A stretch of 64,000 nt of DNA from an uncultured Cocleimonas sp. (lineage in GTDB: Bacteria > Pseudomonadota > Gammaproteobacteria > Thiotrichales > Thiotrichaceae). This document shows, piece by piece, positions 89 to 20,855 of this stretch. Made by a program: the position numbers and the translations under genes. The stretch is taken from positions 1-64,000 of the forward strand of contig NZ_CANLZW010000008.1 in assembly GCF_947495625.1 (NCBI RefSeq), written 5' to 3'. Position 1 is the first letter of the stretch. Each line of letters begins with the position of its first letter. Below the pieces are notes generated by a model. That model searched no databases and was not told the DNA's origin. It saw only the letters and a program-made list of their open reading frames with translations.

Positions 89-1411
89 TTACTGAACTTT
101 GACCCTAAATAACATCTTAAATGAAGGGTTACCTGCCCCACTATTTCCTAGAAATGGTCCTGTTGTTGCTATCCGAATATGCGTTACATTAGTATCTACC
201 CCATCAGCATCTGCTGTAGGATTATAAATGTAACTACTACCCCCATTATCTGAAAAGCTAAGGTTATCAATTGAGCTTGATAGATTAATAAAGTTATAAG
301 CAAGTCCACTCGGTGTTGCACCATCTTCAAAACGGATAGGACCAGTTCCAGCCCCTGATATATCATTAACATATAAAGCGGTGTGTGCAGGAATAGCATC
401 AGTAATAATGATTGAATTAGAATCGGCAGCGCCTGCTCCCGAGTTTGTGGCACTGATGGTGTATTCTTCCAATGCACCTGGAATAGCTTTTGGATTAGTT
501 CCACCATTTACCGGATCATAAATAGTCTCTAACGTTTTTTGTAAGCTAATACTAGGATTGGATAAGGAAGTACAATTAGCGGGGTCGGCTAAATTATTGT
601 AATTAAAACTTCCCGTCTGTATATGAACACGAAAAGCTTCATTTAATGCATTATTTGTCGAACCGGGTGTATCTGTTATGGCTGATGACTTTGCAAAATT
701 AGACCCATCGAACCAACTTCCGCATGAGAATAAAAAAGTACTAGCTGAACCACTACTACTGCTGCCACCAACTTTAAAAGAACCTGCAGGATAGGGTGTT
801 GAAATACTTCCAAAAGCAAAGCCATGGAATAAATTCCCACTAGCATCACGTGATTGGGCGACATCACCTCCATTACGCATCGTGATGGGATTATAAGAAG
901 GGGTATCGGCTGTAGCACAACTTGAATAACCCGCATCTGAAGATGACGGTGGCCCAGCACAAGTTTTTACGCAGCTTCCTTTTGCTGGCAATACATAGAC
1001 ACCATCGCCATTAGAATCACTAGTATCATCAGCGGGTAAATTATCATTGGGTTCATCATCATTGTATACAACAATGATAGAACCAGGAGGAACAGAACTT
1101 AGTGCAGAGCAATTTGTTGGATCAGTCTGTGAATCTAATCGGGCATAACCGGATGATATGCCAATACCTGAAATACTAGCCTGCCAGTCACCATTGTTGT
1201 CATCTAGAATCCACTGGTCTAGATTTACAGGAGAAGTTGGATCGGTAGCATCACCTACTACCATAAATTCATAAAACTCCTTTAAGCCAGAGGTACCATT
1301 TGAAGCCTCATTTACAATAAGACCAGCCGCCATAATTTGAGTAGAGAAAATACTCGTTATTATGCAGAACAGCGTTAGTATGGTTTTTATTAGAGTCTTA
1401 TTCTTTGTCAT
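89..1411 (-). CDS. Secreted lamin-tail-like/DUF11 surface protein
   Basis: A 440-residue protein with a signal peptide (hydrophobic residues 8-28, ending QIMAAG). Residues about 30-120 resemble a lamin-tail domain: LIVNEASNG, EFYEFMV, LDQWILDD and a later PPGSIIVVYNDDE strand. Residues about 285-440 form a DUF11-like module with the signature DPVNGGTNPKAIPGALEEY and end in MLFRVKVQ, the same ending as the 745-residue protein encoded upstream. It is the last gene of a minus-strand series of secreted DUF11 proteins and is separated from the next by a decayed gene fragment. No good Shine-Dalgarno is visible before the ATG. A structural surface or matrix role is inferred from the domains; no catalytic motif was seen. 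Confidence 0.75.
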   Translation of the reverse strand: MTKNKTLIKTILTLFCIITSIFSTQIMAAGLIVNEASNGTSGLKEFYEFMVVGDATDPTSPVNLDQWILDDNNGDWQASISGIGISSGYARLDSQTDPTNCSALSSVPPGSIIVVYNDDEPNDNLPADDTSDSNGDGVYVLPAKGSCVKTCAGPPSSSDAGYSSCATADTPSYNPITMRNGGDVAQSRDASGNLFHGFAFGSISTPYPAGSFKVGGSSSSGSASTFLFSCGSWFDGSNFAKSSAITDTPGSTNNALNEAFRVHIQTGSFNYNNLADPANCTSLSNPSISLQKTLETIYDPVNGGTNPKAIPGALEEYTISATNSGAGAADSNSIIITDAIPAHTALYVNDISGAGTGPIRFEDGATPSGLAYNFINLSSSIDNLSFSDNGGSSYIYNPTADADGVDTNVTHIRIATTGPFLGNSGAGNPSFKMLFRVKVQ

Positions 1412-1580
1412 TTATATATGGAATTACATAAAAGGAGTTTTAAATTTATTTTATGTTTGGTCGATTGCTTATAGTTGCTATGTAAAAATATTTGCATGCA
1501 ATAATAATACATTATCTAGTTGTTTACTTTATGTGAAATCAGATATTTGGTGTATTAATTTTTATTTTTTATGCTTACAA

Positions 1581-1610
1581 AATACATTCGAAAAGTAGGG
1601 AGGGATATAA
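1581..1610 (+). repeat. Degenerate copy of the intergenic repeat
   Basis: GAAAAGTAGGGAGGGA resembles the repeat core with substitutions in the G-run. It belongs to the decayed duplicate of the region around 1817-1848 and so was probably copied together with that gene end. Confidence 0.45.
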
Positions 1611-1611
1611 T

Positions 1612-1750
1612 TTATTTTACTGGACTTTGACATGGAAAAAATCTAAAACCAAGGATCATCAGATGCGCTAGTAGTGCTGAAATGCCCTGATGTTGTAATT
1701 CTAAAGCTAGCAACAGTACTAGCTACCCCTCAGCATCAGGTGAGGGGTGA
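1612..1750 (-). pseudogene. Decayed duplicate of the 3' end of a DUF11 gene
   Basis: This stretch is clearly similar, base by base, to about 1851-1992, the last codons of the 745-residue DUF11 protein. It includes the reverse-complement codons for HVKVQ-stop matching RVKVQ-stop. A one-base deletion soon after breaks the frame and the copy ends near position 1750. Flanking sequence is duplicated as well: TCAGATATTTGGT occurs at 1539 and 1755, and GCTTACAA at 1573 and 1811. The result is a non-functional tandem remnant of a gene end plus its downstream repeat. The rest of the 1412-1855 gap is AT-rich and shows nothing else. Confidence 0.7.
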
Positions 1751-1816
1751 TTTATCAGATATTTGGTATAACTTTTTTTAACTTTTAAAGTATGAATCTT
1801 TTTAGTTAATGCTTAC

Positions 1817-1848
1817 AAAAAACATACGAAAAGTAGAGGGGTGACTTA
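1817..1848 (+). repeat. Copy of the intergenic repeat
   Basis: An A-run, ACATACGAAAAGTAG and AGGGGTGACTTA, matching the family except for an A in the G-run and a changed left arm. It ends 7 bases past the stop codon of the minus-strand gene that ends at 1856. Confidence 0.6.
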
Positions 1849-1855
1849 ATTTGTT

Positions 1856-4093
1856 TTACTGGACTTTGACACGGAACAAAATCTCAAACCAAGGGTCACC
1901 AGATGCACTAGTAGCGTTGAATTGCCCTGATGTTGTAACTCTGAAGCTAGCAACATTAGTATCAACCCCGTCAGCATCTGGTGAAGGGGTTATAGATACG
2001 TTACTAGAATTAAAATAACTTACGCTACCCAAAGTTAATCCACTGGATGGAGAGCCGTCCATAAAACGCACTGGCGCAATTCCAGGCCATATCTGTTCAA
2101 CATAAAGTGCGGTGTTTGCTGGGATAGTGTCTGTAATAACAATTGAATTATTATCAGCCACTCCAGCACCGGAATTTGTGGCCATAATTGCATATTCAGC
2201 TATAGCCCCAGGTATTGCCTTCGGATTTACATTTCCATTTATTGGATCAGATATTGTTGATGACGTCTTTTTCAAGTTGATAGTAGGTAATTCATTAGCA
2301 GCAATTAAGCATATATCGTCGATATGCCAATGGTCACTAGGAGGACTATCATATCTGTCATTACCCGTATTGCGTATACGTACTCTAAAGTTGGGGTGTT
2401 TTGCTGCTGTTGGCATAGTATAACTGAGGTTATATATTTGACCTGCTGTTCCACCACCATCAAAAGTACCAAGAGTTACCCAATTATTTGATGAGTTCAG
2501 ATATTGAATTAAAATATCGTCATCACCGTTAGGGTTTTCGCTGAATGAATCAGCGCCTCGACGAAGCCATAAGCTAAGTTCATCAAAGTTACTGCTAGTG
2601 TTTACAGCAATTGATGTTACATCAGAAGCACCATTAAACATATCTAGTGAGTGTGTTGGTGAAAGCGAAGTAAGGTTAGTAATTGCTGCTCTTGCAGGAT
2701 TACTCAATATCCAATTGCTAAGACCATTTTCAAAATATTCACATTGCCCAACAGTAAATGCTGGCGTCGTACCACCCGATACCGTAGTTGTAGCGGTGCT
2801 GTCATTATTTTCTGTGACATTATCAAAGTTTGTACCAGAGACTGATGCGGTATTACTGATAGAAGGAGAGGCCGAGTTGCCGACTGCAACTGTAAGTGTG
2901 ATTACTGATGTGCTACTGCCTACTGCTAGATTACCTGTTCTGGTGCAGGTGACATTTTGACCAGAAGCACTACAATTCCAACCTGAACCAGTTGCAGATA
3001 CATAGCTTAAACCTGTTGGTAAAGTGTCAGTAACAACAATATTACCTGGTTCTATATTTGGACCTATATTGTTTACGGCAATATTATAAGTTGCATTAGA
3101 CCCTACGCTAAAACTGCTGGTTGCTGTTTTGGTAATATTAAGATCTGATACAGGTGTATTGGTGACACTGATAATTTCAGAAGAAAGCAATACTAAGTCA
3201 GTGCCACTACTGTAGGTTGATGTTGCTGAGGTCTCACCCCCTGAAAGATAAGAGCTAATGTCAAAAACATCAAAATCCACTCCATATGAATTATTGTTCA
3301 CTGAACCTGTGGAAGGTGATGCAGCACGTATATTACTGATTGAATTAAATTGAGCATGCAATGGATTTGAGCTATCCACTAAAGCATTACCATTAAATAC
3401 TAAATTCTCATTATCGTTATTAAGTGAATTATCTCCCTCCCATGTAAGAGTGGCATGTTTGCCATTTATTCCTGAGTTAGGAGTTCTAAAATTATCTGGT
3501 GTAAGAGTAATGCTACTATCTCTGAAAGCCTGGAAGCCTTCGTAAAGGTTAACTACTCTAAAATCTTCACCAGGGGCTTCATAAATTATAACCAGTGACC
3601 AGCCAGCTAAAACGCCTTCTGCACTACAGTATGGGTTTACAGTGCTGACTGTTAAGCCGCTAAAATTATAAGTGCCATTACGCTTCGTGTTTACTTGTGA
3701 GGTGACATCGGCTACGCCACTAAAAAAATAATAGGTTGACGCATAGTCTGCAGTATATTGTCTATTTGTGGGGGCTGTAACGGTGCTTCCTTCAAAAGTG
3801 ACAGTATAATCTGGTGTAGGACCAGATCCCGCCCAATATAAATGAGCTGCACGAATAGTAGCGCCAGCCGGTATCCCTGATACAGTAGCGCTATTATTTG
3901 TATTTTCACCTAGAACAGCACATGCGTTACCGTTATTAGATTGAGTTCGTCGAGTTGCTTCGACTCCAACAAAATTAACATTTCCAGCATAGCTTTGAAA
4001 TAAGTCTACAGTTGTGTCAGCAAAAACTGGGAGTGTTGAAATAAATATTACATGACAAACTATAAGTAGTTTAATTAATTTGTGTGACATCAT
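1856..4093 (-). CDS. Secreted multi-domain DUF11 protein
   Basis: A 745-residue protein with a signal peptide (MMSHKLIKLLIVCHVIF to PVFA). Residues about 25-310 form a beta-rich domain with SLVIIYEAPGEDFRVVNLYEGF, resembling DUF3344-type surface modules. A classic DUF11 domain follows at about 316-440 (TYNIAVNNIGP, VVTDTLPTGLSYVS). Residues about 455-600 look like a MAM or jelly-roll lectin-like domain (CEYFENGLSNW to HWHIDDICLI). The C-terminal module carries DPINGNVNPKAIPGAIAEY and ends ILFRVKVQ. The start overlaps the end of the 1988-residue gene by 23 bases, which suggests translational coupling. It is probably exported across the outer membrane or held on the surface with its operon partners; the function is unknown. 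Confidence 0.8.
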   Translation of the reverse strand: MMSHKLIKLLIVCHVIFISTLPVFADTTVDLFQSYAGNVNFVGVEATRRTQSNNGNACAVLGENTNNSATVSGIPAGATIRAAHLYWAGSGPTPDYTVTFEGSTVTAPTNRQYTADYASTYYFFSGVADVTSQVNTKRNGTYNFSGLTVSTVNPYCSAEGVLAGWSLVIIYEAPGEDFRVVNLYEGFQAFRDSSITLTPDNFRTPNSGINGKHATLTWEGDNSLNNDNENLVFNGNALVDSSNPLHAQFNSISNIRAASPSTGSVNNNSYGVDFDVFDISSYLSGGETSATSTYSSGTDLVLLSSEIISVTNTPVSDLNITKTATSSFSVGSNATYNIAVNNIGPNIEPGNIVVTDTLPTGLSYVSATGSGWNCSASGQNVTCTRTGNLAVGSSTSVITLTVAVGNSASPSISNTASVSGTNFDNVTENNDSTATTTVSGGTTPAFTVGQCEYFENGLSNWILSNPARAAITNLTSLSPTHSLDMFNGASDVTSIAVNTSSNFDELSLWLRRGADSFSENPNGDDDILIQYLNSSNNWVTLGTFDGGGTAGQIYNLSYTMPTAAKHPNFRVRIRNTGNDRYDSPPSDHWHIDDICLIAANELPTINLKKTSSTISDPINGNVNPKAIPGAIAEYAIMATNSGAGVADNNSIVITDTIPANTALYVEQIWPGIAPVRFMDGSPSSGLTLGSVSYFNSSNVSITPSPDADGVDTNVASFRVTTSGQFNATSASGDPWFEILFRVKVQ

Positions 4094-7000
4094 TCTGCTT
4101 CACTATTTTATTATTATTTTTCGTATCATTTTCGTCTTTAGTTTTAGCTGTTCTACGATAAGGTAAATCACCTTTAAGCGTATCTTGATTAAATTTATAA
4201 CGAAAATCTGCATAAACACCTTCACTGGTGTAGTTATTATTATCGAAATCTTCATCAGTGAATCCTTCGACGTTATAACCTAATTCAACCCAGATATTTT
4301 CTTTTGGATTAAAACCTACAGAAACTCCAGCTACATATTCGATAGCTTTATCTGTCCAATCTCGTAAATATCCACCATGTAGACCCACATCCCAACGTTT
4401 ATTTATATCACGACGTAATTCAACGGTTGCTGTATCAATAGTTGATGTGCTTTTTACACCATCATTTTCATCTTTAACGTATTTGATACCATGATGAATT
4501 CCTATTTTTGTTTTTTCATTGATTTTGCGGTTGTAATGTAGATTGTGAACGATTTTTTGTGCATCGTTGTTATTAATATTGGCAAAGGCATTTTCACTAT
4601 CGTTGGTCGTACTTGAAGATTTTTCACTGATTAAATCAAGACGTGAGAAGAAGACAAAATCCTTTTCTTTAGGGTGCCACGCACTACCAAAACTTAACTT
4701 TATATCCTTATCAAAGTCACCATCTATATGCTCTGAATTGTAATAGCTTAATTGTGCGCTAAGATTTTTACCATTTTCATAATTTCGAATAATACTCGCT
4801 AAGAAATTAATTTTGTCATTGAGCTCACCGTTTCTATATTCCGCACGTGAAGTCCAACTCCAGTCCTTCGTGTTTGAACCTAAGCCCACAGTAAAAGCAG
4901 TGTAGTCATCACTCTCTGAACCTTGAATAACTGGTTCATCTTCATTGAAACTTTTCTGGTTGGCACTGTCACCGATAGTTTTAGCTTGATCAACGCTGAA
5001 GTCAGCACTAATATTATCGGTTAATTTAACAGTTTGGCTTAAACCTAATGTTGCATAATTACGTTGACCTTCGTCAGTTCTTTCCTGGGTATAAGTAGTT
5101 TTAGTTTTTGCGCCTTTCCACAAATCCTTGCTGATGCCTACACGGTTGTTATGTGTTTTTAGTTCACCATTATCGGTTGTTTCATGTTCTGCAAAAACAC
5201 TGAAACCTTGTGCCAGTTTTACATCTACACCGACTATCATTCTATCTGGGCTAATTTCACTGCCATTTTTAGCAGAGATGTTTTTTTCTAGATCAGTACG
5301 TAAAGTAACTTTATTATTTTTAGTAGTATATTGGCCACCTAGTAGTAACGTATCACTTTTTAATATTTCTTTAGAGTTGTCTTCTCCTTCCAAATCCTCT
5401 TGTGTATGCCTGTAACCTAGATCCACTTGGTACTGTTTAATTTGATGTGATACACCAAATTTAGCAAGTCGACGCTTATTATCGTTTTCTAAATTCTTTT
5501 GAAGTGAGACTTCTGAATTTAACGTCGTTTTTTCATTCACTCTAAAATCGAGTTCGGCACCAATCTTTTCACTGCCATTTTCACTGTTTTGTGAGTCTAT
5601 TCCAAATCCAGATTCTTGCTTCTTATAGAAAACTCGTGTTTCCATATTCTCGATTTCTTTCTCGAGCTCAATTATGTAAGCCTGACGTTTTTGAAAGTCA
5701 CTAGCTTCAGTTTTAGATTGTGCTACTTCAATATGGACTTCTGTGTCTGGGGTTATTTTGTATGTGCTATCAGCAGCAATAAGTTGATTGTCACGGCTAT
5801 TATTTTTACCTTCATGGATAAAACTTATGCCGGTCTCTAGCTTGTCATTTTTAGTCTTTACCGCTATACGTCCACCTGCTGTGATTGATTTATTAGTATT
5901 CTCTTCAGAATCATAATCCACAACAATAATGTTAGGGTTAAAGTCTCTATCACGACTGCTTATTGGAAATTTGAAGAAGAGGGTGCCTTCTTCATAATCA
6001 ATATTGTAATCTTGGTAGCGACTGAGTTGACGAGTTTCTATTATCTTGTCTGAACGGAAGCGATCTCGTGTCTCAATAGAGATGGTTTCACTGTTCGGAA
6101 TTATTTTATCTTTTAAATAATAAAGTCCAGAAGTCCCGTCACCAGGAATTTCTTCATGATGGTGGTTATTACTGGTTTCACTAATAAAACCTTTGAAGCT
6201 GAAACGTTCACCCTGGTATTCAGTATTAATACCATTCAGAGTACGTTGATAGTTAGCCAGTTCCGTAATGGTCATATCTGTTTGATAATCACCATAAAGC
6301 GCATAAAAGCTGTCTTTTTCAATTTTTAAGTATAGTTTTTCAGAACTCGGTGCATCATATTGACTATTACTATTGTCTGCGTAGATCGTGTAAAACGCAT
6401 CTGGGTCTATATTACCGTTTAATTGACTGCCCACTTCCCGGTCTTGTTTGTGCGTGTCATAAGCAGCAGTTAAAAGATATTTACCTTTAACCTGACCCTT
6501 AGCGAAGAAAGCCACTCTGCCTCGTTTACTAAACTTATCCGACTTGTCTAAATCTTTCAATGCTTGCATATTGCCAGACAAACGTTTGTGCGCGAGTGTG
6601 CCTTCAGCGATACCCACCATGATCCATTCTCTTAGTGCTGGCTTTAACCAGGCAGATATTTTGGTACTTTTATTGTTAGTACCGGAATAATTTTTGCCTG
6701 AGCTTGAAAATTCAAGGTTAAGTTTTATTTCTCCAGATTGAGTAGTGGGGTTAAGTTCAATTCTGGCAATGCCACCCTCTTCAATTTGGTATTTGTAGCG
6801 GCCTGTATTTGTTTCATTTAGATCGTTGATGGTCTCTTCATTAGTATTTTGTGTTTTTATGCGGTATTTGCTGTTCTCTAGAGTAAAATAACCATTGGTG
6901 TTTGCACGTAATGGAAATCCTTCTTCATCTTTTATCAAAAGCGCAATAACAGGTGTAGTTTTACCATCAGCAATTAAAACTGATTTATCTTTAAGTAACT

Positions 7001-10000
7001 GAGCAGATACAGGATTAGTAGAAAAATGAATATTATGTGTTTTACGTGATATTTCTTTGCCTGACTTATCTTTTAAAATAACAAGTAAAGTGTTGTTTTT
7101 TCTCTTTACGTCAATATCCACACCTTTCCAACGTCTAACAGCTACTGTACGTTTTTTGTTAGTGTTGCTACCATCGTAGTTTAATGGTGATACTTTTTTA
7201 CCGTTAAGAATTACTTCGACTTTATGTTGTGGTGAATTCTTAATGAAAATATTTATAGATCCTATTGCTGGGACATAATTATTTTTAGGCCATAAGATTT
7301 CAAAACCCTCAGGTGCGGTTTTTAAATATTCTTTACCGTACAATCTAAATGGATCTTTCGTCCCAGTTTTTTTATCTAGAGTTTCGGTACTTTTTACATA
7401 ACCATCGATTTGTTTCACATGGAAATCAACGTTCCATAGATTACCCGGCTGCAGATCAACAAAGTGTGACTTAGCATCTTTCGCACGACGAGTATTATCA
7501 TCACATAACAACGGTTCATATCCAGGGATACTTTCTGTATCTAATTGAACAACATGTGCACCGGGATAAACGCCTTCCATATGCCAGAAACCTTCTTTAT
7601 CCGTTAGTGCACTTCTTCCAGTTTCAAGATATATTCGAGCTTCACCAAGTACTTCTGGTGGTACTTCATTTTTATCTGATTTAGTTTTGCAACCAATATA
7701 AACGCGACCAGTCAATATGTTTTGGCTACGCATTAAGTCGTCTTTAATGGTAACGGTTGCCTGTGCTTTGTTTGAACGTAAAGAGCCACTGGTTAGGTAT
7801 ACTGTATTTATTGCTTCACCAATTTGTACGCCTGCTGACACCTTTGTCACATAGCTGATAGTCCAGGTGCTTGCGACTGGCATATTGATTAAATCGAATG
7901 TAAGTGAACGACCATTAAATGTAACTTTGTCATTTAAGCGGCTACCATTTAATTCTGCACTGTCTGGTATATAGCGGAACCCAATTGGTAACAAGTCATG
8001 AACTTTTAGGTTATTGAGGTTAAAACCGGTTGTGTTACTAAATTCAAGTGAATATCTAACTAATTCTCCAATCGCAGAATAGTCTTTATCAGCTTGCTTA
8101 CGAATCTGCAAACTGGTATCAGGTATAATCAGCGCAGCACTAGCACTAGTATCAGTACTATCTTCTTCATCTCGATAGTTCACATTAATCGTATCGCCTT
8201 CTGCAATACTTAATATGCCATCTTGTACATTAGTATTATCAGTAGAGGACATGATTACCCCTCTAAATATTCCTGAATTAATAGACGTTTCCGTCAATAA
8301 CAAAATTTCGGTGTCGTTGGTTCCAGGGATACTTACAGTCACAATTATTGTTTCAAGTCTTTCTGAGTCAATATTTTGATCAAGATCTATCACTTCAATA
8401 ACAATGGGCTCGCCAAGTGTATATTGATCTGCTTCGACAATAGGTTGTTCTATTGGCAATTTAACAATAGATCCATTAGGCAGTGATATATTTTCAATAT
8501 CTTCAAAAAATTTACCACCATCTTTATTCGAGTTAAAAGATGTCGATTGAATTATCGAGCTCACACCCGTTTCATTTATTTTTAAGAAATTAATAGTTGA
8601 GGGTGTTCTTACTTTAACCATAGCTGTTGCTATAGGTGATTCTGCAAAATCACTGTTTGCCACTACTTTGTTTATCGCTTCTCCGGGGGTTGCCTCTTCA
8701 TTTACTTTCACTTTATAGGTTAAAACAATTGATGTTGAAGCTTCTAGTGAACCTATTTTAACGTTTAAGTCGTTTCCAGTTACTTCAACAGCATCTGTTG
8801 TGAGTAAATTTTCATTAACTTTCAGACTATCAGATTGATAAACAAAACCACTTGGTAAACTATCTTTAAAAGTAAGATTACTCAGATTACGGTTTAAAGG
8901 ATTAGTCAAAGTCACTGTATATTCGACGATATCACCGTTAGTAACACTAGTACTGCTTGTAGTTTTTGTTAATTTCAATGTGTCGTTTACGATATTTACC
9001 GTAGCAGACGAAGTGTTTGAGTTTGCTTTAGGATCATCAGCAATAACATTCGCACTATTTATAAGTGTTCGTGTATTGTCAACAATACTAGTTACAGTCG
9101 CTTCATAGGTTAATAGTGCCGTTGAACCTGCATTTATATCTCCCACAATAAAAGATAAACCATTAGTCTCGTCGACAGAAATTGTATTGTTATTAACTCG
9201 GGCAGAGCCTGCTAGATAGTCCAACCCAGCAGGTAATAAATCTTTCACTATAGTGCCAGAGACTGAACGACTATTATTATTTTTGATGGTAAGTGTATAG
9301 CTAATATTCTCACCAATTTTTACTTCTTTATTACTAGCGTCTTTACTTAATACTAGTGGTATCAAAGGAGTAACAGGAACAATAACAATGGGTTGATTAA
9401 TTGTTACATTAGATTGTGCCTGTGATGAGGTGACGGTATCAGAAATGGCAATTGCTTTATTGGTAGCATTACCGGTAGGTGTTGCAGTGCTAACATTCGT
9501 TTTGTAGCTAACACTCCAATTCGTGTTCGCAGGTATATCGCCCAGGTTTATTACAAGAGAACCTGTATTGCTGCTGATTTGACTAGCATTAACAGCAACA
9601 TTATTTAATCTTGCAGAATTAGCGATATAAATCAAACCGGTTGGTAAGTTATCCTGAATAATCACATTAGTTAAGATTCTAGGGTTTGGATTCTGTACTG
9701 TTAGAGTATAAGTAAGAGTACTGCCAATCACTGCTGAACTGGTATTAACAGTTTTAGAAAGATTAATATTGTCTGTCGGTGTTACAACAGTATCTTTGGT
9801 AAATTGAACACTGTCGCTTAAATTTAAGTTATTACCATTAACGGTGTAGTTTGCTGTAGCCGTATTGGTAATTATTGGCATAGCTTCTAAGCTAACTGAT
9901 GGTGCTGTAAAGCTTAGTATTAATATAAATGTAAATAAAATACGCGCAATCAACCCTTGAAAAACACAGTGGTTTTTCCAGTACTTGGGTAATTTAATAT

Positions 10001-10037
10001 TACCAGTAATAAGAGATGTAAGATCGTTTGGAATCAT
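4071..10037 (-). CDS. Giant DUF11-repeat protein with C-terminal outer-membrane barrel
   Basis: A 1988-residue protein. An N-terminal hydrophobic segment (about 28-50) acts as signal. DUF11 domains lie near 90-215, 225-345, 350-475 and 640-760, each with a D-x-LP-x-G motif such as VIQDNLPTGLIYI. Between the last two lies a beta domain with LTETSINSGIFRGVI. A Cna-B/SdrD-like fold (about 765-840) and Ig-like domains follow. Residues about 1200-1450 contain DYNIDYEEGTLFFKFPI, a pattern also seen in SprA-like outer-membrane proteins. From about 1450 to 1960 alternating amphipathic strands, many ending in aromatic residues, suggest a beta-barrel with a short charged tail. It is the central gene of the operon and could anchor or export the smaller DUF11 proteins. 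The barrel is inferred from strand pattern only. Confidence 0.8.
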   Translation of the reverse strand: MIPNDLTSLITGNIKLPKYWKNHCVFQGLIARILFTFILILSFTAPSVSLEAMPIITNTATANYTVNGNNLNLSDSVQFTKDTVVTPTDNINLSKTVNTSSAVIGSTLTYTLTVQNPNPRILTNVIIQDNLPTGLIYIANSARLNNVAVNASQISSNTGSLVINLGDIPANTNWSVSYKTNVSTATPTGNATNKAIAISDTVTSSQAQSNVTINQPIVIVPVTPLIPLVLSKDASNKEVKIGENISYTLTIKNNNSRSVSGTIVKDLLPAGLDYLAGSARVNNNTISVDETNGLSFIVGDINAGSTALLTYEATVTSIVDNTRTLINSANVIADDPKANSNTSSATVNIVNDTLKLTKTTSSTSVTNGDIVEYTVTLTNPLNRNLSNLTFKDSLPSGFVYQSDSLKVNENLLTTDAVEVTGNDLNVKIGSLEASTSIVLTYKVKVNEEATPGEAINKVVANSDFAESPIATAMVKVRTPSTINFLKINETGVSSIIQSTSFNSNKDGGKFFEDIENISLPNGSIVKLPIEQPIVEADQYTLGEPIVIEVIDLDQNIDSERLETIIVTVSIPGTNDTEILLLTETSINSGIFRGVIMSSTDNTNVQDGILSIAEGDTINVNYRDEEDSTDTSASAALIIPDTSLQIRKQADKDYSAIGELVRYSLEFSNTTGFNLNNLKVHDLLPIGFRYIPDSAELNGSRLNDKVTFNGRSLTFDLINMPVASTWTISYVTKVSAGVQIGEAINTVYLTSGSLRSNKAQATVTIKDDLMRSQNILTGRVYIGCKTKSDKNEVPPEVLGEARIYLETGRSALTDKEGFWHMEGVYPGAHVVQLDTESIPGYEPLLCDDNTRRAKDAKSHFVDLQPGNLWNVDFHVKQIDGYVKSTETLDKKTGTKDPFRLYGKEYLKTAPEGFEILWPKNNYVPAIGSINIFIKNSPQHKVEVILNGKKVSPLNYDGSNTNKKRTVAVRRWKGVDIDVKRKNNTLLVILKDKSGKEISRKTHNIHFSTNPVSAQLLKDKSVLIADGKTTPVIALLIKDEEGFPLRANTNGYFTLENSKYRIKTQNTNEETINDLNETNTGRYKYQIEEGGIARIELNPTTQSGEIKLNLEFSSSGKNYSGTNNKSTKISAWLKPALREWIMVGIAEGTLAHKRLSGNMQALKDLDKSDKFSKRGRVAFFAKGQVKGKYLLTAAYDTHKQDREVGSQLNGNIDPDAFYTIYADNSNSQYDAPSSEKLYLKIEKDSFYALYGDYQTDMTITELANYQRTLNGINTEYQGERFSFKGFISETSNNHHHEEIPGDGTSGLYYLKDKIIPNSETISIETRDRFRSDKIIETRQLSRYQDYNIDYEEGTLFFKFPISSRDRDFNPNIIVVDYDSEENTNKSITAGGRIAVKTKNDKLETGISFIHEGKNNSRDNQLIAADSTYKITPDTEVHIEVAQSKTEASDFQKRQAYIIELEKEIENMETRVFYKKQESGFGIDSQNSENGSEKIGAELDFRVNEKTTLNSEVSLQKNLENDNKRRLAKFGVSHQIKQYQVDLGYRHTQEDLEGEDNSKEILKSDTLLLGGQYTTKNNKVTLRTDLEKNISAKNGSEISPDRMIVGVDVKLAQGFSVFAEHETTDNGELKTHNNRVGISKDLWKGAKTKTTYTQERTDEGQRNYATLGLSQTVKLTDNISADFSVDQAKTIGDSANQKSFNEDEPVIQGSESDDYTAFTVGLGSNTKDWSWTSRAEYRNGELNDKINFLASIIRNYENGKNLSAQLSYYNSEHIDGDFDKDIKLSFGSAWHPKEKDFVFFSRLDLISEKSSSTTNDSENAFANINNNDAQKIVHNLHYNRKINEKTKIGIHHGIKYVKDENDGVKSTSTIDTATVELRRDINKRWDVGLHGGYLRDWTDKAIEYVAGVSVGFNPKENIWVELGYNVEGFTDEDFDNNNYTSEGVYADFRYKFNQDTLKGDLPYRRTAKTKDENDTKNNNKIVKQNDVTQIN

Positions 10038-10170
10038 TATATTTATATTTATTAGTAGTTTGTATGATTTTATTTTTAATTATTATTAAAGAGCATAGAT
10101 ATTAAAAAGTGATATGGTGGAATCAATTGTTTCTGATTCCACCATTACTTGCTAAATAGCAATATTCAAA

Positions 10171-11271
10171 TTATTGAATTTCTACAAAAAACGTCATCGT
10201 TGCAGTTCCTGTAGTTGCTGGAACTGTGAAAGGATCACTTGTAACTGTCCCGGTCGTTGATTCACTACAATTAAAAGAAACTCCAGCAGTGCTTGAACAT
10301 GCTGCAGCAGGAGCTTGAGCTGTTTCATATAGAACAGCACCATCTATCGTATCTGTTATCACAACATCAGTAGCATCTGCAGGGCCTGTATTAGCGACTG
10401 TGATGTCATATCTAATAACTGCACCTGGTATACGCTTAGGGTTCGTAGTGCCATTTATAGGGTCATAAACCACTGCAGAAGTCTTTGTAACATTAAGTGC
10501 TGCAGTTGAGATTACATATCCGCTCGTATCAGAATGAGAGGCATTTCTTGCTCCTGAATCAGCAGCACCACCAGTACCATCGGCTAAAACGATATCAACA
10601 CCCGCGGCAGTTTCTGTAGTTCCTGAGTCAACATATGCAGTTGTACCTGTTGCACCTGTAGAAATAGCAGTTGCTAATAATTCCACTTCAGATTGAGCTC
10701 CACTAACCACTGTAGCGCTAGCAGCTGGAATAGCACACTGTACTGTGACATTTATGGTTTCATCAGCATCAATAGGATAGTTGGTTCCAGAAGCTAAAAC
10801 AGGTGCAGTAACTGTACAAGCACTTGTATCAAAAACATCATCAGGACTTGAGGTCGCTACCTGTGTTGGAGTTAAACTGAAATATTCATCACTATTACCA
10901 GTATTTGCAACTGTATAGGTAATAGAAGTGCCTGCTCCTGAAGCTTGACCTGGACCAACTGTTACATTTGTGGCTACACCTGTAACGGTTAAGTCTATTT
11001 TCTTATCCACTTCAAATGTGGTTGCACAGGTGGCTGCAGCTGGAGGTGTAGATCCATCAACTGGCAAAGCTGCAGTACACGCTGAAGGGTCTGAGTTACC
11101 GGTAGGTGAACTATTTATATCAGGTTGATCTGCACCCGAAACTTTATATGAGATTGTTGCTCTGTTGTTTATACTCGTATCTGCTGCTGTACCCGCAGCC
11201 CATGCGCTATTACTAGCAAAAGCGAGTATCGCTACACTCGTTAGTGTTTTCATTATTTTAATTTTATTCAT
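10171..11271 (-). CDS. Secreted DUF11-like protein
   Basis: A 366-residue Ala/Thr-rich protein with a signal peptide ending SNSAWA-AG. The N-terminal half carries NNRATISYKVSGADQP, the start typical of these repeat proteins, and several Cys residues that could pair in the periplasm. The C-terminal module contains YDPINGTTNPKRIPGAVIRY and VVITDTIDGAVLY and ends TFFVEIQ. The DPxNGxxNPKxIPGA signature is shared with the 440- and 745-residue proteins of the same operon. It lies 133 bases upstream of the giant barrel gene on the same strand. The base composition is richer in GC than its neighbours because of the Ala/Thr/Gly content. Probably a surface subunit. Confidence 0.75.
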   Translation of the reverse strand: MNKIKIMKTLTSVAILAFASNSAWAAGTAADTSINNRATISYKVSGADQPDINSSPTGNSDPSACTAALPVDGSTPPAAATCATTFEVDKKIDLTVTGVATNVTVGPGQASGAGTSITYTVANTGNSDEYFSLTPTQVATSSPDDVFDTSACTVTAPVLASGTNYPIDADETINVTVQCAIPAASATVVSGAQSEVELLATAISTGATGTTAYVDSGTTETAAGVDIVLADGTGGAADSGARNASHSDTSGYVISTAALNVTKTSAVVYDPINGTTNPKRIPGAVIRYDITVANTGPADATDVVITDTIDGAVLYETAQAPAAACSSTAGVSFNCSESTTGTVTSDPFTVPATTGTATMTFFVEIQ

Positions 11272-11354
11272 TGTTATCTTCTTTTAGGTTTGTGTTAAAA
11301 ATTAAGATACTTAATCTATTTGTAGTTCTTGTTATTAAGATTTTGTATCAGGGG

Positions 11355-11876
11355 TTATAGCAGGCGTACTCTGAATCCTACTGCCTGTTTGGTTTGAGGC
11401 GCCAAGTTTCCAAGGTATTGCCATTGAATATGGGTATAGTCAGAAGGCTTGGCGGGATATATTTTGCCGTCATTTCCTCTAACCTTAAGCGTACCTGCTT
11501 TCCCATAGTGTTTACCGCCGTCAACAGAAAACACGATTTGTGTGTTTTTGCCGTGGGCAGTATTAGGTAAATAAACCGTGTGCTCCGGTATTGGATTGAC
11601 AATATTGATATTGTCAGCTGGTTTATTACTGATGTTTTCAAAAAAGGTGTTGTATTGAACTGTTTCACCCGGTAAAACTTTTGCTGCTGGAATAAAGTTA
11701 TACGATTTCTTTCCATCTTTATTCACCACAACCATTTTTTGCACATTTGATGTAACTTTAAGGTGCCCTTGTTGTGCAGCTGATGCTTGCGATGTTAATA
11801 AAACGAATGTCGCAATTGCACTAATTAAAATTGTGTTCGCCGTTTTTGATTTATATTTAATCTTTTTATTTATCAT
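11355..11876 (-). CDS. Small secreted DUF11-like protein
   Basis: A 173-residue protein with a signal peptide (about 1-33, ending QASAAQQ). It is essentially one DUF11-like beta-sandwich: VLPGETVQYNTFFENIS, NPIPEHTVYLPNTA, then FSVDGGKHYGKAG and a final strand GFRVRLL. The single-domain size suggests a minor or capping subunit, or a chaperone-like partner, of the surface assembly; this is inference. It lies between the 373- and 366-residue proteins on the same strand, 13 bases from the first. A second reading frame across the same bases (112 residues) is a shadow. Confidence 0.75.
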   Translation of the reverse strand: MINKKIKYKSKTANTILISAIATFVLLTSQASAAQQGHLKVTSNVQKMVVVNKDGKKSYNFIPAAKVLPGETVQYNTFFENISNKPADNINIVNPIPEHTVYLPNTAHGKNTQIVFSVDGGKHYGKAGTLKVRGNDGKIYPAKPSDYTHIQWQYLGNLAPQTKQAVGFRVRLL

Positions 11877-11889
11877 GTTGTTATACCCC

Positions 11890-13011
11890 TTAATTAATAA
11901 TATATGTCAATAGGATTTCATATTGGCTTCCAGCCGCAAAGCTTCCCAGGTTTATTGTTGCCGTATCGGCGTTTGTAATTCCATAATCAGTGTTGTCACT
12001 GTCACTTAGATCAGTTTGGTTCACATTGTTTAATCTTATACTTCCGAGCTTGTAGGTCATATTCATGGGTGTTGGATCGGTAATCACTAAGTTTTCAATA
12101 TTACCAACGCCTGCGGTATTAACTTGAATTTTGTAAGTAACCTCTGAACCTGTAACTGCAGTATTTCCACTGCTTGGGTCAACAACCGATTCAATGGTTT
12201 TATTCATAATCAATGTGGGATCGGCTGTAGCACTGGATGATATATAGGTTCTTCTGGCTGAATGCATGCCATCTCCCATAGCGTCATCTTCACCAGCATC
12301 ATCAGCAAATACTGTTTCGATGTTGCTTGCGGTGTCAGATCCGGTTGTAACTGTGGTATCTGTTCCATCTTCGTTTTTAACTACTTCAGCGATTAATCCG
12401 ATTAATGCAGTTTCGCCAGCTAAGATAGGAGATCCGACATTATCCAAAGGAATATCGCATTGCACGCTAATACTCGCTAGCTGATCGGGTGACAGTTTAA
12501 TATTTCCTGAGGTTGGTAGAACTACACCTGAGACGGGAGTACCACTGACACCCGTTACTTCAATGTTACAGTTGTTACTATCGAAATCATCGGAAGTTAG
12601 CAGGTTGTCTACGATTAAATCGAATTCTTGAATCGCATTACCCTGATTTTGCAAAGTGAATGTTACTTCGGCTTGATAATCACCTGGTGTAACATTTGCA
12701 TTCGTATTACCTGTTACTAATAAGTCAACTTTTCTATCAACTAAAAAGTCGGTGCTTACTCCTTTACCTAGACCAGCAGAAGAGTTACCTGTAGGAGAAC
12801 TTTCAATAGTTGATTGCTCAGTATTATTAATCTGATAATTAACTAGGGCGATATTACTAATATTGGTACCTGCAGCCACACCTTGCGCATTTACGTTATG
12901 AGTAAAAAGCAAAGTCAGTAGGCAAAAAGATACCATCAACAAGAAAGAAAGATTCTTGCAGGTATTATTTAACCAGCGATGTAGATTATATTTTGTAATA
13001 GCACTTCTCAT
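11890..13011 (-). CDS. Secreted DUF11-like protein, first gene of the surface operon
   Basis: A 373-residue protein with an N-terminal hydrophobic segment at about 20-42 ending HNVNAQG, a likely signal peptide. The N-terminal half starts with AAGTNISNIALVNYQINN and contains FLVDRKVDLLV, closely paralleling TFEVDKKIDLTV in the 366-residue protein, so the two are paralogues. The C-terminal module (about 285-373) is DUF11-like (VTYKIQVNTAG, LVITDPTPMNMTYKLGS). It lacks the FRVKVQ ending and stops at LLTYIIN. It opens the minus-strand operon that runs to position 89, so its upstream region should hold the promoter. Confidence 0.75.
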   Translation of the reverse strand: MRSAITKYNLHRWLNNTCKNLSFLLMVSFCLLTLLFTHNVNAQGVAAGTNISNIALVNYQINNTEQSTIESSPTGNSSAGLGKGVSTDFLVDRKVDLLVTGNTNANVTPGDYQAEVTFTLQNQGNAIQEFDLIVDNLLTSDDFDSNNCNIEVTGVSGTPVSGVVLPTSGNIKLSPDQLASISVQCDIPLDNVGSPILAGETALIGLIAEVVKNEDGTDTTVTTGSDTASNIETVFADDAGEDDAMGDGMHSARRTYISSSATADPTLIMNKTIESVVDPSSGNTAVTGSEVTYKIQVNTAGVGNIENLVITDPTPMNMTYKLGSIRLNNVNQTDLSDSDNTDYGITNADTATINLGSFAAGSQYEILLTYIIN

Positions 13012-13358
13012 TATTTTTAGTATTTTTTATTACAGCTGTTACTTTTCTGTGTATAGCAGAAATTTAAGGTTTAAAATAAACGATTAGAGGTTTATTTGGC
13101 TCAATATTTCAATTAATTTATATACATAAGCACTATTACTTAAATTAGATTAATGTAAGATGAATATAAGGGGATATTCAGATAGACGGATCTTGTTTAA
13201 GTTGTTGCTTTTACTAGTTATATTGCGTGTTTATATGTTTGCATAGCAAGTATAATTCCGGCAGCTGATTCGGAAAATAATATTCGCAATCACCACTTTT
13301 ATTGGGCTATCGGAGCTGTTTTTTTCTTACTTTTGTATTACTAAATTTTAAACTTAAT
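13012..13358. other. Divergent intergenic region
   Basis: This AT-rich region separates the minus-strand DUF11 operon from the plus-strand DUF945 gene and must hold promoters for both. A TATAAT at 13251-13256 is a plausible plus-strand -10 box, but no convincing -35 box is found at the right distance. No repeat-family copy and no small gene was seen. Confidence 0.4.
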
Positions 13359-14690
13359 ATGAAGAAAATAATTACAACAAGTTTCACTTTTTTTCTGTTT
13401 TTAATAATCGCCTGGGGTTTATCGTCTTGGTACTTTGGTGTTCAGGCTGAGAAAGAATTTCGTCAAATTTTAGAAGTACAAACCAATAAACTCGGTGAAA
13501 AACCATTTAGGTTAGAGTTACTGGATTACGACAAAGATTTTCTTGGTTCAACTGCTGCTGTCCGTGTTAGCTCTGATATTCCATTATTAAATGATTGGCT
13601 GGGTGATTTTGAGTTGAAACTTAAATCACTGAATGGGCCATTGTTTATCACCAAGAAGGGTGTTGATTTTGGTGTGTCACGTTGGTTTATTCGCATAGAT
13701 CCAGAAAGTTTTTCAGCTGAATCAAAGGAGAATCTTTTTAGAATTTTTCCAGAAGAACTACCTAAAGGCGTTTTGATTATTGGATTTGATAAAGAATCCA
13801 GCTTTGATTCATCCTTTAAAACGGATTGGTTAGATTCTCAAGTTACTGCTATTTATAATTTGAGTACCTTTTCTTACCGCGGCGCATTTGATATTAAACG
13901 GTTAAACTATTCATCGACTGGTATAAAGATTTCAGCAGATGAAGGGAAGATTAGTTTTCAATACCCTAATAGCGTTGAAACCTTGAATGAGATTGAATCC
14001 AGTAACTTAGATAATCCGGCTACCTATAAAACAGTATCTATAAATGTTCCCCAGCTAAACATTGATTCTCAAATTATATCACATCCGATAGTTGCAGCCT
14101 TAAAAGGTAATAGCCAAATAACTATAAAAAATAATGTGATTGATACTTTTGTTAAGTTGCATTTTAATCGCTTGAAACAATCCTCTGATCAAAATAATGA
14201 GGTATTACCTATAGATCAATTGCAGATAACAGCACAGGGTTCTGGTATTCAACAATCGAGTTTTTTGCAAGTGATGGAAAACAAAGCAGAGTTAGATAAC
14301 CTGCAAATGCAAACGCAATGGGAGCTACAAGAAAACGGAGAACTGCCAGAAGGCCAGGATAAAATTTGGCAGTTACAAAATCAAATTCATCGTCTAAATC
14401 AAAAATATCCAGTGAGTTTTTATAACGCCCTTTTTTCTTCCAAAGATAATGTAAGTACTAATCCTAGCCTTGAGATTCAGGCGTCAAATGATAGTGGGCA
14501 ATCAAGTCTCATCGGTCATCTTAAACCTTCAGTAAATTCGGGTGAATCAACCCGTTTTATAGATTTACTAGAAGCTGAGGCAAGTGTCTCACTCGATGAT
14601 ATGCTTTATGACTTTATTTCGAAACGCACCGCTATACGAAAAAAACAATTTTCATTGCTGTACAAACAGAACAAGTTATTGATGCAGTAG
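13359..14690 (+). CDS. DUF945 (YdgA-like) family protein
   Basis: A protein of 443 residues from ATG 13359. The frame is open to an upstream TTG at 13302, but the ATG gives the proper signal-anchor MKKIITTSFTFFLFLIIAWGL followed by YFGVQAEKEFRQIL, the hallmark start of DUF945 proteins, so it was preferred. Family members are inner-membrane-anchored periplasmic proteins of unclear function. The body is rich in beta strands with repeated polar segments, as in the family. The gene stands alone between the DUF11 operon and the next secreted protein. Confidence 0.7.
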   Translation: MKKIITTSFTFFLFLIIAWGLSSWYFGVQAEKEFRQILEVQTNKLGEKPFRLELLDYDKDFLGSTAAVRVSSDIPLLNDWLGDFELKLKSLNGPLFITKKGVDFGVSRWFIRIDPESFSAESKENLFRIFPEELPKGVLIIGFDKESSFDSSFKTDWLDSQVTAIYNLSTFSYRGAFDIKRLNYSSTGIKISADEGKISFQYPNSVETLNEIESSNLDNPATYKTVSINVPQLNIDSQIISHPIVAALKGNSQITIKNNVIDTFVKLHFNRLKQSSDQNNEVLPIDQLQITAQGSGIQQSSFLQVMENKAELDNLQMQTQWELQENGELPEGQDKIWQLQNQIHRLNQKYPVSFYNALFSSKDNVSTNPSLEIQASNDSGQSSLIGHLKPSVNSGESTRFIDLLEAEASVSLDDMLYDFISKRTAIRKKQFSLLYKQNKLLMQ

Positions 14691-14754
14691 AGGTTTATTC
14701 TCAAAATTGATATACTGCCGTTTGCAATTTAATACCGTCTTTTAAACCCAAATA

Positions 14755-14786
14755 ATAAAAAAACCTCTATAAGTAGGGGGGTGTAT
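14755..14786 (+). repeat. Copy of the intergenic repeat
   Basis: An A-run followed by CCTCTATAAGTAGGGGGGTG, then TATAAAAG instead of the usual ACTT. It lies between two plus-strand genes, about 83 bases before the second. The arms CCT and AGG can pair around a longer loop. Confidence 0.75.
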
Positions 14787-14868
14787 AAAAGAAGTTTTTT
14801 AAAGTTTAAGAAAGAAGGATTAATTGCAACATTATAAAGCTGGGCTGTTTATTTATTAGGGGATAAAA

Positions 14869-16125
14869 ATGCGCTTTTTTAAGTTTACTTTTCTAAAGTA
14901 CACTATCGTTTTGTTAATGCTATTAATGGCGAAATCGGTTTCTGCAGAAGTGTGGAAATCCGGAAATAATTACTGGAATGATAATTGGGAATTAAAGTAT
15001 CAGGAATGGGTGAGTACTCAATGGAAGCCTGATTTCTTTATGAGCAAGATCAGACCACAGTACGAACGTATTCCTCACGATTGTGCTGATGCCATCTATT
15101 TGATGCGTGCCGTGTTTGCCTACGAAAATAAACTGCCTTTCAAAATTCATTATCTGGGTAAGAAGAATAAGTACATCAGCAATACCATGACAAACTGGGA
15201 TAAATTACCAGAAGATCAACGCTTCAGAGCGTTTGCATTATTCATGAATGATCGTGTAGGTACGCGAAGTTTGCCTCACGACTCATTTCCCATTGAATTA
15301 GCACAGATCAAAGCAGGGGATTTATACGTAGAACCCGGGACACATTCTTATGCAATGACGGGTATTACCGATACAGGTGTGACAGCGATTATGAGCTCAA
15401 CAACACCTGCCTCTCCAAAGAATATGATTCAGCTGTATTCATTTCCCTTTTTTATTCCGCATGATGCGGTTGGCATGAGCGATGGATACCGTCGTTTTAA
15501 ATGGCCAAGAAATATCGGTAAACCCATCCAGCAACAGCCCGGTTATAGTAATGAGCAATATCAAATAGCTCAAAAGGTCGGACTTGAATACATCCCATTT
15601 ACTGATGTGATCTCTAAAAAATTACAACGTAGAGAAGAGCCTCTTGAAGAAAAAACCATGCGTTTAATGCATAGCTTATGTTCATTCGCCAAAGAACGCG
15701 TGAATTATGTTAATGATGGCATTGCTTATATCCAGAGACTCAAAGATCAAGGTAAACGTAGTTGTATGACAGCGTCTGAATATGATTACTATTCAACACC
15801 TTCTAGAGACAAGCGTTTGTATCGTTTCTTTACCGAAATTCATAAAATTGCCTATTCGGGCGGTGAACTTGAAGAAGATAAAGTCAATGCACAAGTATTG
15901 GCTCGTTCAATTTTTCATCCTGAACTCCCAGATGGCTTATTAAAAGAACTCGATGAATTTTGTGGTTTAGCAATTTATCCAAATGATACGGTTAAGCATA
16001 TTAATTTGCGTCAACTTTGGGAAGCAATGGAAGCTGGTAAGGTTTCATCTGACCCTCATGCACCTTTTGATAATCGTTGGGGTTTATCTGATAGCAACTT
16101 TATGGGATCATGCCCGACCTTTTAA
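14869..16125 (+). CDS. Secreted protein of unknown function, possible Cys/His hydrolase
   Basis: A 418-residue protein with a signal peptide (about 1-26, ending KSVSA-EV). I do not recognise the family. After a Trp-rich start, PHDCADAIYLMRAVFAYE places a Cys at the head of a helix, and about 90 residues later GTHSYAMTGI supplies a His. This spacing recalls papain-fold amidases of the NlpC/P60 or transglutaminase type, but the catalytic assignment is inference. The C-terminal half is helical and charged with conserved-looking Cys residues. AGGGGATAAAA before the ATG could act as a Shine-Dalgarno. The gene is followed by a reversed copy of the intergenic repeat that could act as its terminator. 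Confidence 0.65.
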   Translation: MRFFKFTFLKYTIVLLMLLMAKSVSAEVWKSGNNYWNDNWELKYQEWVSTQWKPDFFMSKIRPQYERIPHDCADAIYLMRAVFAYENKLPFKIHYLGKKNKYISNTMTNWDKLPEDQRFRAFALFMNDRVGTRSLPHDSFPIELAQIKAGDLYVEPGTHSYAMTGITDTGVTAIMSSTTPASPKNMIQLYSFPFFIPHDAVGMSDGYRRFKWPRNIGKPIQQQPGYSNEQYQIAQKVGLEYIPFTDVISKKLQRREEPLEEKTMRLMHSLCSFAKERVNYVNDGIAYIQRLKDQGKRSCMTASEYDYYSTPSRDKRLYRFFTEIHKIAYSGGELEEDKVNAQVLARSIFHPELPDGLLKELDEFCGLAIYPNDTVKHINLRQLWEAMEAGKVSSDPHAPFDNRWGLSDSNFMGSCPTF

Positions 16126-16190
16126 TTCGAACTATAAATCCGAGCTATAATTAAGCTATACAGTAATTAATGGTTCCTAAATCAATAAAA

Positions 16191-16220
16191 TGCCACCCCC
16201 CCACTTATGGGCACTTTTTT
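16191..16220 (-). repeat. Reversed copy of the intergenic repeat, terminator-like
   Basis: Read on the plus strand: a C-run, ACTTATGGGCA and TTTTTTT. The arms here are CCCA/TGGG instead of the usual CCTA/TAGG, a compensatory double change that supports a real hairpin. It follows the plus-strand secreted protein gene and ends in a T-run, so it could stop that transcript. Confidence 0.75.
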
Positions 16221-16255
16221 TGTTGCTATCTGTTTATTTGAAATAGCTAGTAATC

Positions 16256-16285
16256 AATAAAAGCCTCTAAAGTGGGGGGGTGTCG
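16256..16285 (+). repeat. Copy of the intergenic repeat
   Basis: An A-run and GCCTCTAAAGTGGGGGGGTG. It forms a head-to-head pair with the reversed copy 35 bases upstream. It ends 15 bases before the rlmD start codon, so it lies in the promoter or leader of rlmD. Confidence 0.75.
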
Positions 16286-16300
16286 TTTGGACAATCACAA

Positions 16301-19770: not shown

Positions 19771-19799
19771 GTTTTATTATCTATGGATTAAAAAGTGCC

Positions 19800-20777: not shown

Positions 20778-20855
20778 ACTGTGGCCTTTCATTAATTCGT
20801 TTGTATCGTATTGATAAGTATTTATATTTTCAGTTTTATTTGTCTGTTTCTATCT

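Follow-up and report, generated by a model that had tools for sequence, protein, structure and literature searches.

Why would one operon encode five secreted proteins built around the same domain together with a sixth, of 1988 residues, that ends in a predicted outer-membrane barrel, and what could the six build together? The question is raised by a locus at the start of contig 8 (NZ_CANLZW010000008.1) in the 4.6 Mb genome of an uncultured Cocleimonas species, whose relatives belong to Cocleimonas and Leucothrix; the window analysed is the whole stretch of 64,000 nucleotides from that end of the contig. We name the genes A to F in transcription order, D being the 1988-residue protein. An initial annotation had seen a self-contained surface-assembly system with a barrel and no named pathway; barrel and neighbourhood bear this out, but the fit of the parts was missed. 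Judging from the protein sequences, we consider it fairly probable that the locus encodes a donor-strand fibre anchored in the outer membrane and made of split DUF11 (CLIPPER) domains, probably locked by isopeptide bonds between a lysine (Lys) of one subunit and an asparagine (Asn) of another.

Organization of the locus

All six genes lie on the minus strand, as do all features of the locus located below by window position: A at 11890-13011 (373 amino acids [aa]), B at 11355-11876 (173 aa), C at 10171-11271 (366 aa), D at 4071-10037, E at 1856-4093 (745 aa), and F at 89-1411 (440 aa). The initial annotation was right in placing six secreted-type DUF11 genes here on one strand, and the signal sequences that it saw in all of them hold up as well, each protein having at its start a hydrophobic stretch like that of a signal peptide and, behind it, a site that signal peptidase I could plausibly cleave (judged by eye). 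DUF11 is indeed common to all six: PF01345 (DUF11) scores above the Pfam cut-off in C, D, and E, and TIGR01451 exceeds its cut-off of 24 bits in A (26.7 bits) and B (27.0 bits), with F just below (23.8 bits). Partial overlap of the genes, also claimed, applies to D and E only (23 bp), the other neighbours being separated by gaps of 13 bp (A-B), 83 bp (B-C), 133 bp (C-D), and 444 bp (E-F). The end of the locus at F is not established because the window begins at the contig end.

Complete and truncated DUF11 domains

In crystal structure 9IFR (PMC12617251), a DUF11/CLIPPER domain forms an intramolecular isopeptide bond from a Lys in its first strand to an Asn in its last, with a catalytic aspartate (Asp). 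That structure is D's only match among PDB sequences. D has four complete DUF11 domains, all of which retain the three residues that characterize DUF11/CLIPPER isopeptide domains: the first at 9396-9764 (Lys95, Asp129, Asn193), the second at 8994-9356 (Lys232, Asp266, Asn327), the third at 8619-8981 (Lys358, Asp392, Asn456), and the fourth at 7746-8117 (Lys647, Asp681, Asn744). The single internal complete domain of E carries the same triad (Lys322, Asp356, Asn414), and in complete DUF11 domains at related loci Lys is present in 119, Asp in 121, and Asn in 119 of 123.

The DUF11 domains detected at C-termini (25 in A, 23 in C, 16 in other proteins, and one in a D-like protein) all stop at model columns 80-98, before the strand that bears the Asn; among internal DUF11 domains of D homologues, 125 of 150 run past model column 110. 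The detected C-terminal domains are thus incomplete immunoglobulin (Ig) folds without one strand, a feature by which donor-strand complementation is recognized. Four proteins of the present locus end in this way: A (11893-12228; Lys271, Asp312) and C (10174-10509; Lys263, Asp307) at strand F, with no Asn strand following in A; E, likewise lacking the Asn strand (1859-2296; Lys608/609, Asp655); and F (92-559; Lys292, Asp338). Lys and Asp are each kept in every truncated domain of A (38/38) and C (59/59) and in nearly all of those of E and F (27/29 and 28/29, respectively). Conservation of reactive residues that have no Asn partner in cis suggests a partner in trans.

Such domains could also join without chemistry, as in chaperone-usher pili, TasA fibres, and archaeal threads, with Lys and Asp kept merely for folding and no intermolecular isopeptide bond. 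The logic of a split domain works without the bond, and the fold survives loss of the chemistry at two related loci (L074, positions 8006-17586, and L075, 7745-13905), which may represent a non-covalent version of the system: their D homologue has no Lys, Asp, or Asn in its DUF11 domain, and Asn replaces Asp in their subunits. We nevertheless find a purely non-covalent fibre unlikely, since Lys and Asp are each present in 97/97 domains of A and C combined and most other positions of the domain vary; furthermore, the intra- and intermolecular sites of L074 and L075, two loci only, have decayed together, as expected if both are chemical.

Candidate donor strands and the division of roles

A strand resembling the missing one stands at the other end of the proteins. 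Directly after the signal peptide, the mature chains of A and C open with AGTxIxNxAxVxY, and D begins IITNTATANY. The predicted donor strands are GTNISNIALVNY at the mature N-terminus of A (12835-12870; Asn53), DTSINNRATISY in C (11146-11181), with an Asn36 that is invariant in 12 of 12 aligned sequences, and IITNTATANY in D (9846-9875; Asn58). Across loci, the motif is found in 36 of 38 A, 50 of 59 C, and 70 of 80 D proteins, starting at a median of 12-14 residues past the hydrophobic core. Similar strands close the complete DUF11 domains of co-encoded proteins (GTQISNLAQI, ATIDNTAAI, SISNTASV); compared with last strands of the D type, those from other complete DUF11 domains are closer to the N-terminal motif.

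Appended in silico to truncated domains, these N-termini restored the missing strand more often than control N-termini did, the domain score rising by at least 3 bits in 30% (A), 31% (C), and 26% (D) of pairs, compared with 4-7% for the controls (shuffled, B, E/F, or unrelated); per donor, p ranged from 1e-3 to 6e-7. With the independent Pfam model DUF7619, the score of C's domain rose from 21.7 to about 30.8 bits, at near-full coverage, when the C or A strand was added, and N-termini of B, E, and F added nothing.

The initial annotation treated the five smaller products as equivalent beta-sandwich proteins. Instead, the operon appears to encode the parts of a DUF11 domain that is split between proteins, some supplying a donor strand, some an acceptor, and some both: 48 of 59 C proteins have donor and acceptor, 61 of 80 D proteins the donor alone, and 23 of 29 E/F proteins the acceptor alone. 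This division bears on a simpler possibility, in which the N-terminal strand of A or C fills the C-terminal domain of its own chain and yields covalently ringed monomers, secreted as adhesins and never polymerized. Both proteins do hold donor and acceptor in one chain, and distance alone is compatible with closure in cis; we regard it as improbable, however, because D has a donor without an acceptor, E and F have acceptors without donors, and all are co-encoded, so that partners are needed in trans.

B, with its one DUF11-like domain, stands apart. It ends at the same strand as the truncated acceptors and has no donor strand; its family has no conserved Lys, and the Asp position is mostly occupied by Asn or Gly (Asn94 here). 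From these residues, B looks like a non-covalent acceptor or chaperone. Segregation of donors and acceptors into would-be tip, shaft, and base, together with a non-reactive helper, matches the arithmetic of a head-to-tail fibre.

Conservation and distribution

The order A-B-C-D is found across the GTDB family, usually with an E/F-type gene downstream and sometimes with one upstream. The neighbourhood of a barrel and small DUF11 genes that the initial annotation expected in related genomes is therefore real, but its proposed restriction of the synteny search to Thiotrichales was too narrow, given that the same synteny occurs in Delta-, Alpha-, and other Gammaproteobacteria and in a Nitrospirae bin. 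Recurrence of an identical order in dozens of genomes shows that the grouping is not due to chance. Among 53 loci with at least four open reading frames (ORFs) listed upstream, B co-occurs in 43, C in 43, A in 40, and E/F in 18. Of 63 genomes of the order, 44 have D, and strong matches to B were found in 38 of these; the 19 that lack D had none (Fisher p 3e-11). The D barrel is present in 57 of 399 sampled Pseudomonadota genomes, roughly one in seven.

Two plasmid loci were fetched after the donor/acceptor rule had been framed, and by their sequences they appear broadly to follow it. The Novosphingobium locus encodes a donor-acceptor protein, a donor-bearing D, and an acceptor-only protein; in the Acinetobacter locus there are B, a D that bears a donor, a subunit whose gene is broken and has an acceptor end, and one more subunit, in which the donor pattern was not detected. 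As deposited, the Novosphingobium D (L157, 7054-12220) is in two pieces, and the subunit reading frame of Acinetobacter haemolyticus plasmid p4 (L156, 3717-5920) is also fragmented.

Variants of the architecture were noted as well. At L095 (1-2964), a second D-like ORF lies just upstream of the operon, suggesting tandem duplication. The Cocleimonas genome itself (G000) has two more barrel paralogues, of 1196 and 1217 aa, on contigs C12 (L063) and C47 (L064); each is encoded beside a DUF11 protein of about 1500-1600 aa, which looks like the architecture of D divided over two genes. On contigs C56 (L062) and C57 (L061) of the same genome, several DUF11 proteins (415-2548 aa) likewise stop at the truncation point; their last residues differ (..ATVP or ..ATAP), and in none of them is a donor strand visible.

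The predicted barrel of the proposed base protein

Downstream of its donor strand and complete DUF11 domains, D comprises CnaB/carboxypeptidase-regulatory-like and Ig-like domains (6624-7730), followed by a predicted outer-membrane beta-barrel (4188-6623). Residues 795-1988 were modelled with AlphaFold from an alignment of 82 sequences (predicted local distance difference test [pLDDT] 83.4, predicted template modelling score [pTM] 0.81), which replaced a discarded single-sequence model (pLDDT 29). The barrel that the initial annotation had assigned to the C-terminus agrees with this model, in which no soluble fold is predicted, and with structural matches; it is larger than the proposed residues 1450-1960, extending over about 1139-1950 with some 38-40 strands. 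The best Foldseek matches of D are nearly all outer-membrane barrels (SlpA, SprA, MtrB, FimD, LptD, and TonB receptors), headed by SlpA (8ae1, E 8.4e-9), and relatives of D score as Porin_4 (2.7e-8). Counted from a periplasmic N-terminus, periplasmic turns, with a median of 4 residues, alternate with outside turns, with a median of 7, and an even strand count would leave both barrel ends in the periplasm. In two relatives of D, an OmpA peptidoglycan-binding domain (1.1e-13) directly precedes the Ig/barrel part, a placement that suggests a periplasmic position for the pre-barrel part; this D has none. The subunits encoded at the loci of these two relatives are much longer, at about 1000 and 890 aa, and their ends are the same. 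By textbook geometry, 40 strands would give a backbone diameter of about 72 Å, an estimate, which is wide enough for folded Ig domains.

Families that define established export routes were sought with Pfam. The scan gave no match to the usher family PF00577 in D and no PapD-like chaperone or sortase family among the six proteins, and the subunits have no LPXTG-type tail, ending at a DUF11 strand. PF03797, POTRA-Omp85, and DUF560, which mark type V autotransporters, two-partner secretion, and the type XI secretion system (T11SS), were absent from the Pfam matches of D and its relatives. A PF00577 usher is encoded elsewhere in the genome (G000:C1:198809-200461), so a classical chaperone-usher system may coexist. 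The T11SS was dropped as a candidate when the literature lead to it proved to be mostly DUF1194; the grappling hook, a giant DUF11 filament first described from a genus bearing the type IX secretion system (T9SS), was dropped as well, D having four DUF11 domains only and the genome no SprA match.

A giant barrel next to proteins with a common C-terminal Ig-like domain, ending exactly at a strand, also recalls secretion systems: the DUF11 end could be a sorting signal that the D barrel reads, like the C-terminal domains of T9SS cargo and SprA, to which D is locally similar (6h3i, E 5.6e-8). This we judge to be slightly less probable again than closure in cis. It leaves the N-terminal Asn strands of A, C, and D and the invariant Lys and Asp unexplained, and SprA (TIGR04189) had no match in the genome, a weak control given that control genomes also yielded none. 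Least probable, if only by a small margin, is an envelope scaffold or S-layer, with D as the tie between outer membrane and peptidoglycan and with a lattice built of the DUF11 proteins, like that of SlpA/SDBC in Deinococcus: SlpA as the best structural match and the OmpA domains of relatives speak for it, but this D lacks that domain, aligns to SlpA at a template modelling score (TM-score) of only 0.19-0.23, and occurs patchily in the phylum, and the adhesin-like N-terminal domains of E and F suggest tips.

The proposed fibre

How subunits of the donor-strand fibre would polymerize, and in which direction it would grow, we infer from gene content, synteny, the truncation point, residue conservation, donor/acceptor distribution, and the barrel model. 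Sec would carry the subunits across the inner membrane. The mature N-termini of A, C, and D would then expose a last DUF11 strand with its reactive Asn, and A, C, E, and F would present C-terminal domains that lack exactly that strand and retain Lys and the catalytic Asp. Entry of the strand of one protein into the domain of another would complete both the DUF11 fold and its Lys-Asp-Asn triad; subunits would be linked head to tail in this way, and a Lys-Asn bond would probably form between them autocatalytically. E and F, with acceptors only and variable N-terminal domains (in F a weakly LTD-like one), would be tip adhesins; A and C would be link subunits of the shaft or adaptors, C being the proposed major subunit; and D, a donor whose own DUF11 domains are complete, would form the base, held in the membrane by its predicted barrel of some 40 strands. 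At that size, the barrel could let through folded, covalently closed domains, which could not be unfolded for threading. B might hold donor strands reversibly as a chaperone, or cap the fibre.

Several points weigh against this fibre. The donor strand is short, and the local profile used in the appending test was trained on domains from the same loci. With the general Pfam DUF11 model, the gain from C's strand is small (from 35.8 to 38.3 bits, with N-termini of B or E reaching 36.6), that from A's strand being about 4 bits. Taken one protein at a time, A and C were not significantly recognized at the N-terminus by a position-specific score derived from D's last strands; the case for a donor is accordingly strong for the group as a whole but weak for any one sequence. 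In A and C, the domain could also be closed in cis. Closure of the barrel and its strand number rest on DSSP assignments for one model, and Foldseek TM-scores normalized on the query are about 0.2 or less, so that no solved barrel is closely related to D. The N-terminus of D may be periplasmic rather than outside, and the tip could lie elsewhere, because E/F-type genes are found in so few of the 53 loci.

A bolder formulation, which we put forward tentatively and with somewhat more doubt than confidence, is that the locus represents a type of pilus that is widespread in Gram-negative bacteria and has no chaperone: autocatalytic Lys-Asn bonds, each across a domain split between two proteins, would weld its subunits head to tail, and a single-chain outer-membrane barrel, among the largest yet proposed, would serve both as its anchor and as its export channel. 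If true, nature would have a protein-ligation polymer of its own, a surface fibre whose subunits become covalently joined with no need for sortase or another enzyme. It would give a role to proteins whose only annotation is 'DUF11 domain-containing', 'OmpA family', or 'TonB-dependent receptor', supply new orthogonal tag/catcher pairs, and pose the concrete question of how an outer-membrane barrel passes folded, covalently closed domains.

Expression and neighbouring genes

The gap between C and D contains a stem-loop with a T-tract (10114-10145; z = -6.1). An unusually stable C-D hairpin occurs in 9 of 12 loci with a foldable gap, including this one (z -4.4 to -9.9); the hairpins differ in sequence between loci, and most B-C gaps have none. 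The C-D hairpin may act as an attenuator, keeping C abundant and D scarce. Strong hairpins in the B-C gap were noted at L050, which also has a C-D one, and at L052. A promoter scan returned sites no more numerous than in shuffled sequences. Elsewhere in the window (18436-25519), genes for a MoxR ATPase, DUF58, DUF4350, SpoIIM-like, and RDD proteins stand in a row, a common MoxR-type cluster that is apparently unrelated.

Comparison with known systems

The proposed fibre would share with chaperone-usher pili (FimD/PapC with FimC/PapD) Sec export, an incomplete Ig fold, an N-terminal donor strand, the logic of tip, shaft, and base, and an outer-membrane barrel with Ig-like plug domains. Here, unlike in those pili, the split falls at the last strand of a DUF11 domain with Lys, Asp, and Asn, the locus has no PF00577 or PapD-like match, the base would have a donor strand of its own, and the modelled barrel has about 40 strands rather than 24. 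The same cut is known from the laboratory: in the Isopeptag/pilin-C pair engineered from Spy0128, a domain without its last, Asn-bearing strand reacts spontaneously with a peptide that carries the Asn. That pair is a construct, whereas the system proposed here would be natural.

DUF11/CLIPPER domains (9IFR, PMC12617251) are of the same family as D's four domains and share their triad; as described in the available text, their bonds are intramolecular, in the stalks of single-chain fibrillar adhesins, and that text contains no mention that we found of split-domain use. In the archaeal thread of Saci_0406, donor strands connect the subunits head to tail, an isopeptide bond between subunits has been proposed, and a cap protein is encoded by an adjoining gene (PMC9715654). 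Its bond, however, runs from the amino group of an N-terminal Asp to Asn57 two subunits along and is not a DUF11 triad, and the thread has neither outer membrane nor barrel. TasA/TapA is a donor-strand fibre without an usher, in which TapA is a strand-complementing chaperone (PMC9674648, PMC10151520) and thus a model for B; it differs from the present locus in being Gram-positive, non-covalent, and of a different fold. SprA of the T9SS and SlpA/SDBC resemble D as very large single-chain outer-membrane barrels with local Foldseek similarity, but with TM-scores of about 0.2 or less and no family in common by sequence.

Neither a DUF11 domain split between proteins nor this operon was found described in the open-access literature searched, and we therefore class the system as a variant of donor-strand fibres. 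Such fibres have precedents in chaperone-usher pili, TasA, and archaeal threads, and isopeptide bonds of DUF11 have been described inside single chains; what would be new here is a self-ligating variant, which has a fair chance of deserving a category of its own.

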